NCBI RefSeq assembly: GCF_018283645.1
Contig: NZ_JAGSXH010000033.1
Coordinates: forward strand, 1-52,887
Source of the DNA: Actinocrinis puniceicyclus
GTDB lineage: Bacteria; Actinomycetota; Actinomycetes; Streptomycetales; Catenulisporaceae
Direction: 5' to 3'
Length of the DNA stretch: 52,887 bases
The position numbers and the translations under genes are program-made. The notes beneath the pieces are model-generated. The model searched no databases and was not told the DNA's origin. It saw nothing but the letters and a program-made list of their open reading frames with translations. Below, one piece after another: positions 25,988 through 35,593 of this stretch; position 1 is the first letter of the stretch, and each line of letters begins with the position of its first letter.

Positions 25988-27556
25988 ATGGACGACGCGG
26001 TGGTGGTGGGCGGTCGCAAACGGTTCGGCCGCGCGGGATTCGGCGGGATCGCGCTGGGCGCGCTCAGCGGACTGGTCGCGGGAGCCTGCGCGCTCGCGGC
26101 CGGGGAACTGGTCGCGGTCTTCGCGGGCGCGGCCAGCGCGCCGGGCGTGGCGGTCGGCGAGTGGGCGATCGACCTGGCGCCGACCGCGGTCAAGGAGTTC
26201 GCGATCCGCGAGTTCGGCACGCACGACAAGTCCGCGCTGCTGACCGGCGTGTACGTGGTCCTGGCGCTGATCTGCGCGGCGGCCGGGGTGCTCGCGCGGC
26301 GGCACCTGACGGCCGCCGGCTTCATCGCCGCCGGCTTCGGCGTGATCGGGATCCTCGCCGCGGCGACGCGTCCCGCCGCGAACACCGGCTCGTTGTTCCC
26401 TTCGCTGTGCGCCGGCGCCGTCGCGGTGTGGGTTCTGCTCTGGTTGACCAGGCTGGCCGCCGAGAGCGCGGCCGAGGACGCCGGCCCGACCGAGCGGCGC
26501 CGCTTCCTCGGGGCGCTGCTCGGCGCGGCGGCCGGGGCGGCCGTCGGCGGCTTCGGCGCGAAGAGTTGGATCGACTCGCGGTACAACGCGGCTCCCGCGC
26601 GCGCCGCGGTGAAGATTCCGGTACCCGCCCGACCTCTGCCTCCGGTCACTGCGGCAACCCATCCTGATGTGCCCGGACTCGGCCCGTTCTTCACACCCAA
26701 CGCCTCGTTCTACCGCGTCGACACAGCGTTGTCGGTACCGCAGATCGACCCGTCGAAGTGGATGTTGCGTATCCGCGGGATGGTGGCCAGGCCGCTGGAA
26801 CTGACCTTCGAACAGTTGCTCAAGCTGCCGTTGGAGGAACACGATCTCACGCTGACCTGTGTATCGAATCCGGTCGGCGGTCCTTACTGCGGTAACGCGC
26901 GGTGGATCGGCACGCCGCTGGCTCCGCTGCTGCGGCAAGCCGGGGTGAGGACGGGGGCCGATCAGATTCTCGCGACGTCGAGCGATGGGATGACGATCGG
27001 CACGCCGGTCAACGCGGTGCTCGACGGTCGTGAGGCGATGCTCGCGGTGGCGATGAACGGCCAGGCGCTGCCGATCGAGCACGGGTTCCCGTGCCGCATG
27101 CTGGTGCCCGGCCTCTACGGCTACGTCTCCGCGACCAAGTGGGTCGTCGACCTGGAGTTGACGACCTTCGCGTCGAGCGCGGGCTACTGGGTGGCACGCG
27201 GATGGGCGCAGCAGGCACCGGTGAAGACCGCGTCGCGGATCGACGTGCCGGGCGACGGCGCGTCCGTGTCGCAGGGCACGGTGACACTCGCCGGCACCGC
27301 CTGGGCGACGCACCGGGGCGTCGCGGCCGTGGAGGTGCGGATCGACGGCCAGTGGCGGGAGGCGGCGCTCGCGGCTTCGGACACGCCGGACACGTGGCGC
27401 CAGTGGTCGTACAAGTGGGAGAACGCGCCGCGCGGCAGCCATCGGGTCGCCGTGCGCGCGACTGACGGCACGGGAACGGTGCAGACTTCGGCGGTGCGGG
27501 ACGTGGTGCCGGACGGGGCGAGCGGCTACCACGAGATCACCGTCAACGCCGTCTGA
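25988..27556 (+). CDS. Membrane-anchored sulfite oxidase-like molybdopterin oxidoreductase
   Basis: The 522-residue protein has about four membrane helices (20-48, 82-104, 107-127, 137-156). An ERRRFLGALLGAAAGA segment (169-184) resembles a twin-arginine signal. A sulfite-oxidase-type molybdopterin domain follows (about 235-420), with the likely molybdenum-ligand Cys291 in LTLTCVSNPVGG, then GTPLAPLL and a YGYVSATKWVVDLEL segment. A Mo-dimerisation/Ig-like domain ends the protein (430-522: ASVSQGTVTLAGTAWATHRGVAAVEVRIDGQW). It probably acts on the outer face of the membrane with sulfite, sulfoxides or similar compounds; the N-terminal helices may pass electrons or only anchor. Start ATG 25988. 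Confidence 0.87.
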   Translation: MDDAVVVGGRKRFGRAGFGGIALGALSGLVAGACALAAGELVAVFAGAASAPGVAVGEWAIDLAPTAVKEFAIREFGTHDKSALLTGVYVVLALICAAAGVLARRHLTAAGFIAAGFGVIGILAAATRPAANTGSLFPSLCAGAVAVWVLLWLTRLAAESAAEDAGPTERRRFLGALLGAAAGAAVGGFGAKSWIDSRYNAAPARAAVKIPVPARPLPPVTAATHPDVPGLGPFFTPNASFYRVDTALSVPQIDPSKWMLRIRGMVARPLELTFEQLLKLPLEEHDLTLTCVSNPVGGPYCGNARWIGTPLAPLLRQAGVRTGADQILATSSDGMTIGTPVNAVLDGREAMLAVAMNGQALPIEHGFPCRMLVPGLYGYVSATKWVVDLELTTFASSAGYWVARGWAQQAPVKTASRIDVPGDGASVSQGTVTLAGTAWATHRGVAAVEVRIDGQWREAALAASDTPDTWRQWSYKWENAPRGSHRVAVRATDGTGTVQTSAVRDVVPDGASGYHEITVNAV

Positions 27557-31338: not shown

Positions 31339-32757
31339 TCACCGAGCGGCGGTCACGCGGTGCCCGCCGAGGTGCGCGAGAACCGCCTGATGGGCTTCCC
31401 AGCCGTCCGGGAACTTCACCGGCACACCGAGGTGGACCGGTTCGGTGTGCGGATGCGCGTCGAGAAGTTCGGGGATGCCGGCGCGCGAGACGACGATGCA
31501 CGCGTGCCGGTGCCGCGAGAGCAGCACGCACAGCCGACCGGTCTCCAGGTGGAACGCGGTCGCGTCGCGCCGGCCCGACAAGGGATGCAGAACAATGCAG
31601 ACGTCGTATTCGCGGCCCTGGAGCCGGTTCGCGGTGTCGACGGTCACCGCGGCCAGGTCCGCGCCGTGCCGGTCCAGCGCGGCGCGGATTCCCGCCGCCT
31701 GGTCGCGGTGCGCGGCACCGATCGCGACGCGGTCCGCGGTGACCGGCCGGCCCCCAGGGTATCCGGGGTCGAATACGCTCGCCTCGCGGCGCACGAGCCG
31801 CGCCGCGAGGCGGGCGCAGGCGTCCACCGCCTCGGTGTCGGTGCGCACGGTGTGCCGGGCCGGCAGCTCGTAGAGCGCCCAGCCGGTCTCCGCGGCGAGA
31901 TCAAGGGCCTGATCGATCGGTCCGGAATCGGCGGGCCCTGCGACCGTTGCCGCGCCGGGCAGCTTCATCGCACGGTCCTGCGGTGCGCTGCCCGCCTCGA
32001 AAGGGGTGAAGGGATAGAACGCGCGGCACACGAGCGGCGCCGCGGTGGCCGGCAGGCGCCAGGAGTAGGGCAGGCGGTGCACCGGCAGCCGCGGGTTGTG
32101 CGCACGCACGACCGCCACGGCGCTGTCGGTCGGATCCCAGGGCGATCCGGCCCAGCGCTCGCCGTCGATGGTGGCGAAGGGGTCGAGCTGGCCGGGATCG
32201 CCGACGAACAGCGCGGTGCCGTCGGCGAAACGCGGGGCGATCGCCAGCAGGCCGTCCGAGCGCATCTGGTACGCCTCGTCGAGGATCGCCCAGCGCCAGC
32301 CCCCGGCCGGCCGCTCCGGCTGCGCGGTCCTGGCCCATTTCGCGGCGGTCGCGACGGTCACCGCGGGCGCGCCGAGGTCGGCGACCTTGCCCGCGACGGT
32401 GACCGAGTCGTCGGCCGCGTGCGGGCCACCGGTGTGGCGCGCGACCCGCTGCGTCGGCACGTATCCGGACGCCGACAGCCGGCCGATCGTCAGGCCCCTG
32501 CCGGACCCCGGAGCGCCGTGCGCGGCGGCCAGCCGATCGACCAGGTCGTCGACCTGCTCGTTGGTCTGCGCCACCACCATGACTGGCTCCCCGGTGTCCG
32601 CCAGCCGTCCGGCCAGCTCGACCACGAGGGTCGACTTGCCCGCGCCGGGCGGGGAGTCCACGATGACGCCGCGATGCCCGGCGCCGAGCAGGTCCGCGGT
32701 GACCGCGTCGATCACCGCGCGCGCGGCGGCGGAGCGTTCGGCGGACGATCCGGTCAT
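31339..32757 (-). CDS. SF1-type DNA/RNA helicase (third gene of nuclease-helicase operon)
   Basis: The 472-residue protein is a minimal superfamily 1 helicase core. Motif I is SPPGAGKST (35-43), motif II LDEAYQM (159-165, DEAY in place of DEAD/DExQ) and motif III GDPGQLDPF (186-194). Motif IV-like YSWRLP is at 231-236, motif V VDTANRLQGREYDV (373-386) and motif VI LLSRHRHA (412-419). The spacing and the LQGREYD segment fit the Upf1/Dna2 (SF1B) group more than UvrD. It lacks the beta-barrel and stalk that precede the core in that group. Start ATG 32757 overlaps the stop of the preceding gene (TGATG), so translation is coupled and a complex is likely. A frame open far upstream is antisense or out-of-frame noise. 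Confidence 0.88.
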   Translation of the reverse strand: MTGSSAERSAAARAVIDAVTADLLGAGHRGVIVDSPPGAGKSTLVVELAGRLADTGEPVMVVAQTNEQVDDLVDRLAAAHGAPGSGRGLTIGRLSASGYVPTQRVARHTGGPHAADDSVTVAGKVADLGAPAVTVATAAKWARTAQPERPAGGWRWAILDEAYQMRSDGLLAIAPRFADGTALFVGDPGQLDPFATIDGERWAGSPWDPTDSAVAVVRAHNPRLPVHRLPYSWRLPATAAPLVCRAFYPFTPFEAGSAPQDRAMKLPGAATVAGPADSGPIDQALDLAAETGWALYELPARHTVRTDTEAVDACARLAARLVRREASVFDPGYPGGRPVTADRVAIGAAHRDQAAGIRAALDRHGADLAAVTVDTANRLQGREYDVCIVLHPLSGRRDATAFHLETGRLCVLLSRHRHACIVVSRAGIPELLDAHPHTEPVHLGVPVKFPDGWEAHQAVLAHLGGHRVTAAR

Positions 32758-34280
32758 CAGTGCCAGTCCTCGTCGTGGTCGGCGCCGGCCGGGGTGTACT
32801 GCGCGGGCGGGCCGCCGTGCGTCCACGGCGTCTGCTCCGGGTCCGGCAGCGGCGGCGGCGGGAAGAACTCCGCGGCCAGCACCGTCGCGTAACAGCGCGA
32901 CTCGCCCGGTTCGGGCACGGAACCCTCGTCCGGCACGGCCTTGCGTCCCATGTCGTTGGAGAGTTCGAGCTCGACGACGCAGTCCGCGCCCTGCCGGGTG
33001 ACCGACACTATCGACGGACGCTGATTCGGCCGCTGCGGGCAGGCCACTTTCGTACCCTGACGCAGCACCACCTGGTCGGCGGTGCGCAGCCACACGCGCG
33101 GGCGCGGCTTCGGGGTCCGGCCGCTGGTGTCGCGGCGTTCCGCGTCGACGGCGACGACGGTCCCGGCGAACGCCTCCCCGGTGACCCGGTAGGCCGCGAG
33201 CATCAGCGGGTCGTCGAGCGCGCGCTGCTTGTCGTAGGCCTCCTGGGCGGCTTCGAGGTCGGCGAGGCGCCGGGCCGCGGCCACCGCCGACTCGCGGCGC
33301 GGCTGCGGCGGCGCGCCCTCGTCCACGGCGCGGGCGAAGTCGGTGAACCGGCCGCGGTCCACCCTCCACCGGTGCTCGTCGTGCCCGGCCTCCGGCAGCG
33401 CGCGCAGCAGGTCCAGGCCCTGCCACAGCAGATCCCAGGTGGGCTGGAGCCGGCCGCGCAGCGCCTCGCGCAGGGCCCGCCGCGCGGCGTGAGCGGCGTC
33501 CGCATCGCCCTCGGCCCGCTGTTGCGCGGCGATCAGCGCACTGAGCACCCCGGTGTCGAACTCGGGGTCCGTCGCCGGGCCCGCGGACGGCCAGCGGTCC
33601 GGGTCCTCGGCCAGCGCGGCGGCCTGCGGCCCGGTCAGGCCCGCTCCTGCCGGGCCGAAGCGGTCCGGCACGATCCAGGCCAGCAGGGCGGCGAGGTGCT
33701 GGTCCTCCAGCGCGCTCTGCCCGGTGGCCCAGTGCGCCGCGAGCACCTCGGTCAGCGCGAGGCACACCGAGGAGCCCGCGGTGGGCGCGCGATCCTGCGC
33801 GAACCAGGTCAGGTAGCGCCCGAGCACCGGCACCAGCGGGTCGACCGGATAAGGCCCCTGCGCCGAGCGGAACCGGGCAGAGCGCCCGAGCAGCCGCATC
33901 GCCTCGATACCGCCCGGGTTCGGCACAACCAGCTGTGGGGCGTCCAGGTGGCGCTCCCACTGCTCGTGGTTGCGCGTGGCCTCCACCAGTTCGGTCTCGC
34001 CGCGGCACTGCGCCACGTGATCGAGCACGATGCGCGCCAGTTCGGCGAGGAAGACGAATCGCTGGTCGCGGTCACGTGGCTGGTCGACGACGAGCAGCCG
34101 CGGATCGGTGCGGTCCGTGCCGACGAGGGCGGCCAGCGGCGCCGCGGCCTCGCCGGCCATGAGTACGGGCACGAACACCAGCGGCCGCGCGGACAGGTGC
34201 ACGTGCCGCACCGTGGCGAGCGGTACGGCCCGCCCGGCTTCGAACGCTTCGACCCGGGCGAGCGCGGCCAGGGCGCTCAC
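32757..34280 (-). CDS. Unknown protein linking nuclease and helicase genes
   Basis: I do not recognise the 507-residue product. Residues 1-315 are mostly helical with LVFVPVLMAGEAAAPLAALVG near the start. Residues 325-355 form a charged helix (RRESAVAAARRLADLEAAQEAYDKQRAL). Residues 368-475 are beta-rich (GTVVAVDAE, RPRVWLRTADQVVLRQGTKVAC, SIVSVTRQGADCVVELELSND). The C-terminal tail is Pro-rich and acidic. The helix plus beta-rich segment directly before a helicase gene could be the stalk and barrel that SF1B helicases carry in the same chain (inference). Start is GTG 34280, overlapping the nuclease stop by GTGA; the stop overlaps the helicase start. Confidence 0.75.
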   Translation of the reverse strand: MSALAALARVEAFEAGRAVPLATVRHVHLSARPLVFVPVLMAGEAAAPLAALVGTDRTDPRLLVVDQPRDRDQRFVFLAELARIVLDHVAQCRGETELVEATRNHEQWERHLDAPQLVVPNPGGIEAMRLLGRSARFRSAQGPYPVDPLVPVLGRYLTWFAQDRAPTAGSSVCLALTEVLAAHWATGQSALEDQHLAALLAWIVPDRFGPAGAGLTGPQAAALAEDPDRWPSAGPATDPEFDTGVLSALIAAQQRAEGDADAAHAARRALREALRGRLQPTWDLLWQGLDLLRALPEAGHDEHRWRVDRGRFTDFARAVDEGAPPQPRRESAVAAARRLADLEAAQEAYDKQRALDDPLMLAAYRVTGEAFAGTVVAVDAERRDTSGRTPKPRPRVWLRTADQVVLRQGTKVACPQRPNQRPSIVSVTRQGADCVVELELSNDMGRKAVPDEGSVPEPGESRCYATVLAAEFFPPPPLPDPEQTPWTHGGPPAQYTPAGADHDEDWH

Positions 34281-35593
34281 GCGCTCGCCCCGTGCTTCCC
34301 GGTGCCGCCGTTCCCGGCCGCGCTCACGCCGGCCTGGGCGAGTGCCTCGCGGCGGGCCCGGCGCGCGGCGTTGAGCAGCCGCGCGGCCTCGGCCAAGTCG
34401 CCGTCGCCGACATCGCCGACATCGCCGCCGTCACAGCCGCTGTCCGCACTGTCGTAGCCGCCCGGGCTCGCACAAGCTGCGCGTTCGCTGAGGGCCAGGA
34501 CGTCCCGCATCGTGCCGAGCCCGCCGAGCGCGTCGCGTACCGCACGTCCGAGCAGGTCGGTCGATCCGGTGACACGCGCCTCGTCCCGGCAGTAGAACGC
34601 CATGTCGCAGCGCGAGATGCACTCGGGGGCATATCTGGCCCGGACGGCAGCCACCGCCTCGCCGAGCTGCGCCGCGCTGCGTGACGGCCGACCGGCGGCA
34701 TCCGCGGACAGGTCGAAGCTCAGATCGGGCTCCAGACCGTCGAGCAGCGCACCGATGCGCGGCAGCCGCTCGAGTTGGCGGCGCACGGCCGCCAGCTGCC
34801 TGCGCACGTCGATCAGCGTGGCGCACGGCGCGTTGCCGAAGTCTTTCGGGCAGATCAGCACCACGTCGGTAGCCACCAGATCGTCCGGCAGCCCGAGCCC
34901 GGCCAGCAGCCGCTGGAACGCGAGCACGTACACAGCCGCCTGGGTCGCGGCCTCGGCGACCTTCATCGGGTCGGCGTGCCCGTCGATCACCGCGAAGGAC
35001 TTGATCTCGGCGAGATACCAGCGCCACCGCTGCGAGCCGTCGCGGCCCCGGGCCCGCAGCGCGACCAGGTCCGGCTCGACATACGCGGCGCGGCCGCCGA
35101 CCTCCAAGCGCAGCAGCGGGTGGTCGGCCAGCAGCGGCGCCGCCTGCGGATCGCGGGCCGCTGCCACGACCAGGTCACGGGTGCGCCGGTAGCGCTCCTC
35201 CCGGTCGCCGCGGCTCAGGTCGATCAGGCCCGGATCCGCCGGGCCGGCGCCGTCGACAGGCTGGTCAGGACCCTGATCATCTTGGGCCGGGCGCAGGCCG
35301 AGTTCGTCGCGCAGCAGGGCGAGCAGCGCCGCACCGCCGTCGGACTTGACCAGCCGTTCGAAGGCGTTGCCCCGGCTGATCGCGAACGGCGACTGGCCGA
35401 AGCGCGGACCGAAGCCGATCCGCTCGGCCAGCGCCCGCTTGTCCACTCCGGCCGCGTCCAGCACCGCGCGGCGCGTGCAGCCGGGGTTGGCGGTCAGCGC
35501 CGCGAGGGTACGCGCGTCGTGGTGGCGAGACGGCACCGGCCCGCGCAGTTCGGCGAGCCGGTCCGCGACGGATGACGTGGTCATGGCGGCCAT
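34277..35593 (-). CDS. RecB/Cas4-like PD-(D/E)XK nuclease with probable Fe-S cluster
   Basis: The 438-residue protein shows a RecB-family nuclease core: GNAFERLV (76-83), VEPDLVAL with Asp175, YLAEIKSF with Glu196 and Lys198 (the D...ExK pair), and QAAVY (Gln218, Tyr222; QxxxY). Cysteines at 39, 325, 329 and 335 (CISRCDMAFYC) have the one-plus-three layout of the [4Fe-4S] clusters in Cas4, AddB and Dna2. The C-terminal region (380-438) is low complexity. Start ATG 35593 has GGGGA just upstream; ATG 35584 is possible. It is the first gene of a coupled three-gene operon with the unknown protein and the helicase. Role in DNA-end processing, repair or defence is inferred from these domains. Confidence 0.82.
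   Translation of the reverse strand: MAAMTTSSVADRLAELRGPVPSRHHDARTLAALTANPGCTRRAVLDAAGVDKRALAERIGFGPRFGQSPFAISRGNAFERLVKSDGGAALLALLRDELGLRPAQDDQGPDQPVDGAGPADPGLIDLSRGDREERYRRTRDLVVAAARDPQAAPLLADHPLLRLEVGGRAAYVEPDLVALRARGRDGSQRWRWYLAEIKSFAVIDGHADPMKVAEAATQAAVYVLAFQRLLAGLGLPDDLVATDVVLICPKDFGNAPCATLIDVRRQLAAVRRQLERLPRIGALLDGLEPDLSFDLSADAAGRPSRSAAQLGEAVAAVRARYAPECISRCDMAFYCRDEARVTGSTDLLGRAVRDALGGLGTMRDVLALSERAACASPGGYDSADSGCDGGDVGDVGDGDLAEAARLLNAARRARREALAQAGVSAAGNGGTGKHGASA

Follow-up and report, generated by a model that had tools for sequence, protein, structure and literature searches.

Nucleases coupled to helicase motors have been described in several arrangements. In AddAB and AdnAB, an iron-sulphur (Fe-S) nuclease domain is fused to motors of superfamily 1 (SF1) that are of the UvrD type, and eukaryotic DNA2 carries an iron-staple nuclease, a barrel and a motor of superfamily 1B (SF1B), in that order, on one chain. 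A bacterial counterpart is the DNA2-like enzyme Bad of Geobacillus; it is described as a single monomeric chain with a four-cysteine Fe-S nuclease, an SF1B motor that runs 5′-3′ and cuts its own track, and, between them, a conserved domain that is structurally uncharacterised and missing from eukaryotic DNA2, and it was proposed to be a part of a restriction system (PMC7430649). Here, we deal with a locus in which such parts are distributed over three genes, on a stretch of 52,887 nucleotides from Actinocrinis puniceicyclus (contig NZ_JAGSXH010000033.1 of assembly GCF_018283645.1) that is called the window hereafter: genes for a nuclease, for an unannotated middle protein and for a helicase (Table 1). 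Whereas nuclease and motor are fused in the DNA2/Bad class, they are separate here, and unlike in AddAB and AdnAB the motor is of the UPF1/DNA2 type. In our judgment, the three genes probably encode one Dna2-like helicase-nuclease split into subunits, which would act on DNA ends and of which the middle protein would be the central, 1B-bearing subunit; most likely the system is a known kind of enzyme in a split version.

What leads us to see one enzyme in three genes? The genes follow one another as the domains do in single-chain relatives, the motors of both are homologous, and the two forms come near to excluding each other among genomes; a barrel like domain 1B is predicted in the middle chain, and the helicase chain has no room for one; the nuclease has a predicted fold of the Cas4/EXO5/AddB/Dna2 kind with four invariant cysteines; and the genes are coupled, the distances among their products correlate, and SbcD stands beside some of the copies that have a fourth gene. 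As to the coupling, the middle gene is the second of the three, and in the window the nuclease and middle open reading frames (ORFs) share four bases (GTGA) while the middle and helicase ORFs share one (TGATG); both the frame itself, with its limits and length, and its coupling on either side to a nuclease and a helicase had been seen rightly in a preliminary description of this DNA made from the letters. Among 80 named loci, 76 have three separate genes and the remaining four are cut by a contig end. The nuclease and middle genes overlap by 4, 10 or 13 bases in 67 of these 76 loci; counted from the first possible start of the helicase, this gene and the middle gene share 4 bases, likewise in 67 of the 76. 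Four genes of the window around the module found no match at E 1e-20 in the 112 other loci searched, and therefore it is the three genes that make up the conserved unit. Their pairwise protein distances correlate with r of 0.89-0.94 over 47 loci, a value obtained with no control gene run.

By its sequence, the downstream subunit is an SF1B motor of the UPF1/DNA2 type: its profile finds IGHMBP2/SMUBP-2 (E 8.4e-11), DNA2 (1.9e-10) and UPF1 (7e-7) in the PDB, motifs I, II, III, V and VI are nearly invariant in 42 sequences, and the models and chains matched are of the UPF1/DNA2 type and not of the UvrD type of SF1A. MkoA and other PADLOC helicase models are matched weakly. With the start codons as chosen, 32-75 residues precede the Walker A lysine in the 42 helicases, and because of this short leader the chain has little room for a domain 1B; the match within the IGHMBP2 chain starts at its residue 205. 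Where, then, would the barrel of this motor come from? To judge from predicted structure, the C-terminal part of the middle protein seems to supply it. The model, built from 42 homologues, begins at the N-terminus with an alpha/beta part, continues through a helical region and long helices, and ends in a barrel. In a DALI-like structural alignment with VIA-align, the 12 best PDB rows include nine that place residues 326-483 on the stalk/1B regions of IGHMBP2, Senataxin, Sen1 and Dna2, regions that we take to be the stalk and domain 1B lying N-terminal to the motor. IGHMBP2 4b3f ranks first (Z 10.0, root-mean-square deviation (rmsd) 5.8 over 127, residues 329-477 on 3-151), and alignments to the barrel are found with 4b3g of the same protein (barrel only; Z 9.2, rmsd 2.2 over 88) and with Dna2 5eaw (Z 8.1, rmsd 3.0 over 99), so that the advice of the preliminary description to compare the beta-rich C-terminal third with SF1B barrels proved apt. 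Residues 30-305 align with family B polymerases, namely vaccinia E9 (5n2h, Z 9.4, rmsd 4.1 over 186) and 2jgu (Z 9.1, rmsd 4.0 over 184); by the residue numbers, the aligned parts are presumably the exonuclease domains of these enzymes.

By sequence, on the other hand, the middle protein belongs to no recognisable family, as had been stated at the outset. Pfam, NCBIfam and PADLOC gave nothing over cut-off (the best Pfam model, Caa3_CtaG, reached E 0.009 and 15.8 bits against 27.7 required), the PDB gave nothing below E 0.04 by sequence (NucC at E 0.044) and nothing by profile, and a viral fold library gave no match at E ≤ 0.001; a confident match to a protein of unrelated function, which would have spoken against the earlier view, was found in none of these libraries. 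Caa3_CtaG matches 23 of 42 members, at best with E 0.0014 and with the protein of the window under the cut-off, and it was set aside as a chance match in a helical stretch. The middle protein is a real, well conserved and unannotated one.

The nuclease, too, found no family over cut-off in Pfam, NCBIfam and PADLOC, and matches of its profile in the PDB were artefacts from designed proteins. Its predicted structure (mean predicted local distance difference test (pLDDT) of 78.7 for the best model, 64-70 for the other four) aligns with Cas4 (Z 11.0), EXO5 (10.0), AddB and AdnA (8.5) and Dna2 (7.0-7.1), and also with the phage-type exonucleases lambda exo and RecE (Z 8.4-8.6); the best E in Foldseek was 8.4e-4. 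D175, E196, K198, Q218 and Y222 are invariant in 42 of 42 sequences, and in 21 more distant rows D175 and Y222 are kept in all, K198 and Q218 in 20, and E79 and E196 in 19. Four cysteines, one ahead of the catalytic core and three behind it, are kept in all 42 and all 21. This arrangement, together with the RecB motifs, fits the iron-staple pattern reported for AddB, DNA2 and Cas4 (PMC7430649).

Table 1. Positions of the three genes and of their predicted parts in the window
Feature	Position	Strand	Remarks
Nuclease ORF (upstream)	34277-35593	minus	438 amino acids (aa); predicted PD-(D/E)XK nuclease of Cas4/EXO5/AddB/Dna2 type
Span of C39, C325, C329 and C335 of the nuclease	34589..35479	minus	predicted iron-sulphur 'iron staple'
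Middle-subunit ORF	32757-34280	minus	GTG start, 507 aa
Residues 30-205 of the middle protein (limits by eye)	33666..34193	minus	fold resembling RNase-H/DnaQ exonucleases, probably without catalytic activity; predicted only
Residues 329-477 of the middle protein	32850..33296	minus	stalk helices and beta barrel like SF1B domain 1B; predicted structure
C-terminal tail LPDPEQTPWTHGGPP, residues 478-492 of the middle protein	32805..32849	minus	most conserved linear motif, longest invariant run
Helicase ORF (downstream)	31339-32757	minus	472 aa; compact SF1B motor without a 1B domain of its own

The single-chain form to be compared is represented in actinobacteria by proteins of TIGR03491, which we take to be the TM0106 family of RecB-like nucleases and whose members presumably carry a RecB-type nuclease part. 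Nineteen of 20 such frames have 1,066-1,317 aa. In all of the four that were scanned, RNase_H_2 (E 6e-24 to 6e-16) and an AAA_11/AAA_12 motor are found, and PDDEXK_1 of Pfam in two, one of them under the cut-off. The domain order of nuclease, RNase_H_2 and SF1B motor is the same as the order of the split genes; the differences are that everything is on one chain and that its RNase_H_2 can be recognized by sequence. None of the three window proteins matches TIGR03491 at E up to 1. If profiles are compared, for which 18 of the 20 single-chain frames were aligned (L189, of 560 aa, and L200 being left out; L and G numbers denote loci and genomes of our samples), the motors of the two forms are homologous (hhalign 99.8%, E 1.8e-27). 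The barrel scores 23.3 in local mode against the 1B region of the single chains, which none of 60 permuted profiles reached (maximum 18.0), and this gives weak support from sequence to a homology of the barrels. An alignment by eye of the middle protein to RNase_H_2, with Asp replaced by Pro at two sites, found no support in the profile comparison and was dropped.

How are the two forms distributed among genomes? In the family of genome G795, probably Streptosporangiaceae, the split form occurs in 48 of 100 genomes and a single chain over the cut-off in 22; one genome has both where 10.6 are expected, 47 have the split form only, 21 the single chain only and 31 neither (Fisher p 1.3e-6), and if genera are counted both occur in one of 68 (p 4e-5). 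The family of G723, with 35 genomes, gives a similar picture (split 15, single 16; both 1, split only 14, single only 15, neither 5; p 5.8e-5). These statistics are to be read with the fact that genomes are not independent and that in the family of G723 the forms follow genera. In the exceptions that have both forms in the two families, G1063 and G930, the split copy is a remote one, and the fragmented genome G1027 has poor matches of both, its single chain under the cut-off. In the class sample, 134 of 394 genomes have a single chain over the cut-off, and in the order of the window none of 31 does. Because the two forms alternate within families, their distribution argues for an interchangeable function.

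A fourth gene, for about 250-285 aa, stands upstream of the nuclease gene in Streptosporangiaceae copies and in accessory streptomycete copies (L031:5929-6696, L048:7837-8622 and others). Its protein has, by eye, a coiled-coil-like N-terminus, and a conserved SLRRDEERS...RPYY core; Pfam gave no match over cut-off for the member shown, an unrelated model being the best over 17 members (E 0.0012), and the PDB gave coiled-coil-like matches only (best E 0.0091). In the genome of the window, the gene was found neither by one sequence nor by the profile, which matches 18 of 197 genomes of the order, with G038 in fragments only; in the 20 kb of L252 (G078) it stands without the other genes of the module. 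In 12 of 32 four-gene loci, which are no random sample and include several close relatives, SbcD lies divergently beside the fourth gene and SbcC beyond it; these calls come from annotation and, for six of the proteins, from Pfam, and at L032 the SbcCD matches are in pieces. No SbcD neighbour was seen at 73 core three-gene loci, five three-gene loci of another family and 20 single-chain loci, with flanks of different lengths and some loci ending at contig ends. In a FastTree tree of 47 of 49 chosen loci (midpoint rooting, support values not read; L213, without the helicase, and L252, with the fourth gene only, left out), one clade unites 11 of the 12 SbcCD-linked copies with L220, whose 13 kb yielded no SbcD, the remaining linked copy, L222, branches off deepest, and nine core three-gene streptomycete loci form one clade. 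It is simplest to suppose that the ancestral locus had SbcCD and the fourth gene, and that the core streptomycete copy later became separated from them. The SbcCD-linked form also occurs in the window's own family, where three of the ten genomes of one genus (G005, G023 and G027) carry it, whereas the window has the three-gene form. Going further, it is conceivable, if still rather doubtful, that the ancestral form was a six-gene divergent machine for end resection, with SbcD-SbcC on one side and, on the other, the fourth protein and a split Dna2 of nuclease, scaffold/1B subunit and motor; this would be a counterpart of the eukaryotic partnership of Mre11-Rad50 and Dna2, whose three-gene core was kept in nearly all streptomycetes with a motor assembled in trans from two chains. 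A limited search of open-licence literature found no paper on such a partnership in bacteria, which is thin evidence of absence, and none on the three-gene form. At L032 and L033, on the plasmids NZ_CP027023.1 and NZ_CP108489.1, and at L238, the four-gene module lies between SbcD-SbcC matches and jet genes of Wadjet.

Several points weigh against the reading of a split Dna2-like enzyme. The folds of the middle protein are those of a model, the best of five with a mean pLDDT of 78.4 (the other four 62-68), and the RNase-H assignment of the N-terminal part comes solely from it. Foldseek gave this model no match at E ≤ 0.001, its first rows being flavohaemoglobins and reductases; unrelated small barrels reach Z 7-8, which the best Z of 10 exceeds only moderately, and the rmsd is near 6 wherever the stalk is part of the alignment. 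In comparison with the single chains, the nucleases do not match significantly (E 0.014, probability 3.1%), hhalign finds no match between the whole middle protein and the single-chain family, the score of the barrel in global mode is reached by 19 of 60 permutations, and the N-terminal part scores 12.4 against RNase_H_2, which 39 of 60 permutations reach, with nothing found in either mode; low diversity of the profile may explain this last failure. Both forms do meet in four genomes of the class sample (G341, G878, G930 and G849, the last with a doubtful split match) against 24 expected, where in G341 (L189) and G878 the TIGR03491 frame of about 560 aa, in genomes that have a split module as well, is too short for a motor. 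Neither form was found in those 31 of the 100 genomes of the family of G795. At L034 (G489) and L213 (G831), of one family, the nuclease and middle genes are present and no adjoining helicase was found in flanks of 1.5 kb and 5 kb, respectively. Finally, since the core three-gene loci have no SbcCD neighbour, the link to SbcCD is indirect for the copy in the window.

If these points are set against the evidence for one split enzyme, how could such an enzyme work? We infer that the three products form one complex, with the subunits in the order of an Fe-S nuclease, a probably dead exonuclease-like domain followed by the stalk and 1B barrel, and an SF1B motor. The middle protein would complete the motor in trans. 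Its barrel and stalk would lie against the first RecA-like domain of the helicase and contribute to the channel for single-stranded DNA, the N-terminal part would make the connection to the nuclease, and the PWTHGGPP tail, encoded directly before the helicase start, may be what docks on one of the partners. The whole complex would run 5′-3′ along single-stranded DNA, cut its track, and trim or resect DNA ends, possibly with Mre11-Rad50 (SbcCD). The middle protein may thereby be the free-standing counterpart of the central domain of Bad plus 1B, an analogy drawn from the published description of Bad (PMC7430649).

Would the role of such a complex be defence? A nuclease against mobile elements, which degrades invading linear DNA with the middle protein as a sensor or scaffold, is compatible with the architecture of a split enzyme, and accessory four-gene copies on two Streptomyces plasmids do stand beside annotated Wadjet genes and SbcCD matches, a copy in G047 lies about 15 kb from the contig end beside jetABC matches, and the single-chain relative Bad was proposed as part of a restriction system (PMC7430649). 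We regard this role as unlikely because the distribution of the gene is against it. Homologues of the middle protein are found in 281 of 293 genomes sampled from the window's order, its own genome included; in the largest family, streptomycetes by inference, 274 of 278 genomes have it, and the core streptomycete loci are one clade, unlike patchy defence genes. The window's own family has it in 7 of 14 genomes, the phylum sample in 14 of 396 by a search with a single sequence, and the class sample in 71 of 394 by profile, where the match of G849 (E 7e-4) is probably spurious. From these counts, the middle gene belongs to the core of one lineage and has a patchy distribution outside it, and with a mean column identity of 62% over 42 sequences the protein itself is well conserved, not by its linkage only as had been supposed. 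Moreover, PADLOC (2.0) has no match for it and matches the nuclease no better than at E 0.006 (RTasDnaG-like at E 0.0068, a chance level), and no homologue was found in phage records or, in a scan for close relatives, in viral contigs. Three records of a plasmid collection match, one of which has 11.9 Mb though it is listed as a plasmid.

Another possibility concerns the middle protein only: it could be an accessory subunit for recruitment or specificity, as the preliminary description suggested, with a DNA- or protein-binding barrel of its own that is unrelated to 1B. Barrels of reductase, F1-ATPase and riboflavin synthase match at Z 7-8, by which a generic barrel is possible, and the N-terminal fold has no sequence support; and yet the helicase chain is without the very domain that the barrel most resembles, the IGHMBP2 alignment reaches N-terminally beyond the barrel into what we take to be the stalk, and an invariant tail abuts the helicase start codon. 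We find this possibility quite unlikely, and the suggestion as it was worded is not supported: no sign of a specificity or recruitment role was seen, and the findings favour a structural component of the motor itself, with the missing 1B domain and a central domain, over a targeting subunit added to it. The segment RVWLRTADQVVLRQGTKVAC, quoted earlier as a special trait of the C-terminal third, is indeed present at residues 395-414, but the most conserved part is the tail LPDPEQTPWTHGGPP, in which 15 of 15 columns are invariant in 42 sequences. In 65 more diverse rows, which include a duplicate of at least one genome (L048 and L208 probably stem from a single Planomonospora record), PWTH is kept in 64 and PWTHGGPP in 58, and it is possible that the tail is a docking peptide.

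The N-terminal exonuclease-like domain is probably catalytically dead, as far as the model allows this to be said. The first catalytic motif of DEDD exonucleases is D-x-E on strand 1, and no D or E is found at 33-43, the predicted first strand, in any of the 65 rows; an active site of the DEDD kind is for this reason not expected. That this part is nevertheless an active exonuclease with unusual catalytic residues, which would give the complex two nucleases, is very improbable in view of this first strand, although the predicted fold is RNase-H/DnaQ-like, the single-chain relatives carry RNase_H_2, and acidic residues are conserved at 113 (59 of 65) and 192 (64 of 65).

If the split-enzyme reading holds, a nearly universal 'hypothetical protein' of streptomycetes would become a testable part of a DNA-processing machine, the assembly of an SF1B motor from two polypeptides would be suggested, a possible approach would open to the central domain, so far unexplained, of bacterial Dna2-like enzymes, and a Dna2-like enzyme would be linked to Mre11-Rad50 in bacteria.

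Some individual loci show peculiarities of their own. At L213, an ORF that looks glycosidase-like by eye is in the place of the helicase. In Streptomyces philanthi, an insect symbiont, all three genes look eroded (L115): the nuclease matches over 7-229 only, the middle frame is open for 363 aa, and the helicase matches over 204-468. The middle gene of L223 (G767), like those of G833 and G944, is matched by the profile in three separate stretches of one open frame, which suggests two extra insertions. In the window itself, outside the module, an ORF at 25988-27556 on the plus strand resembles, by eye, a membrane protein of molybdopterin-dependent oxidoreductases.

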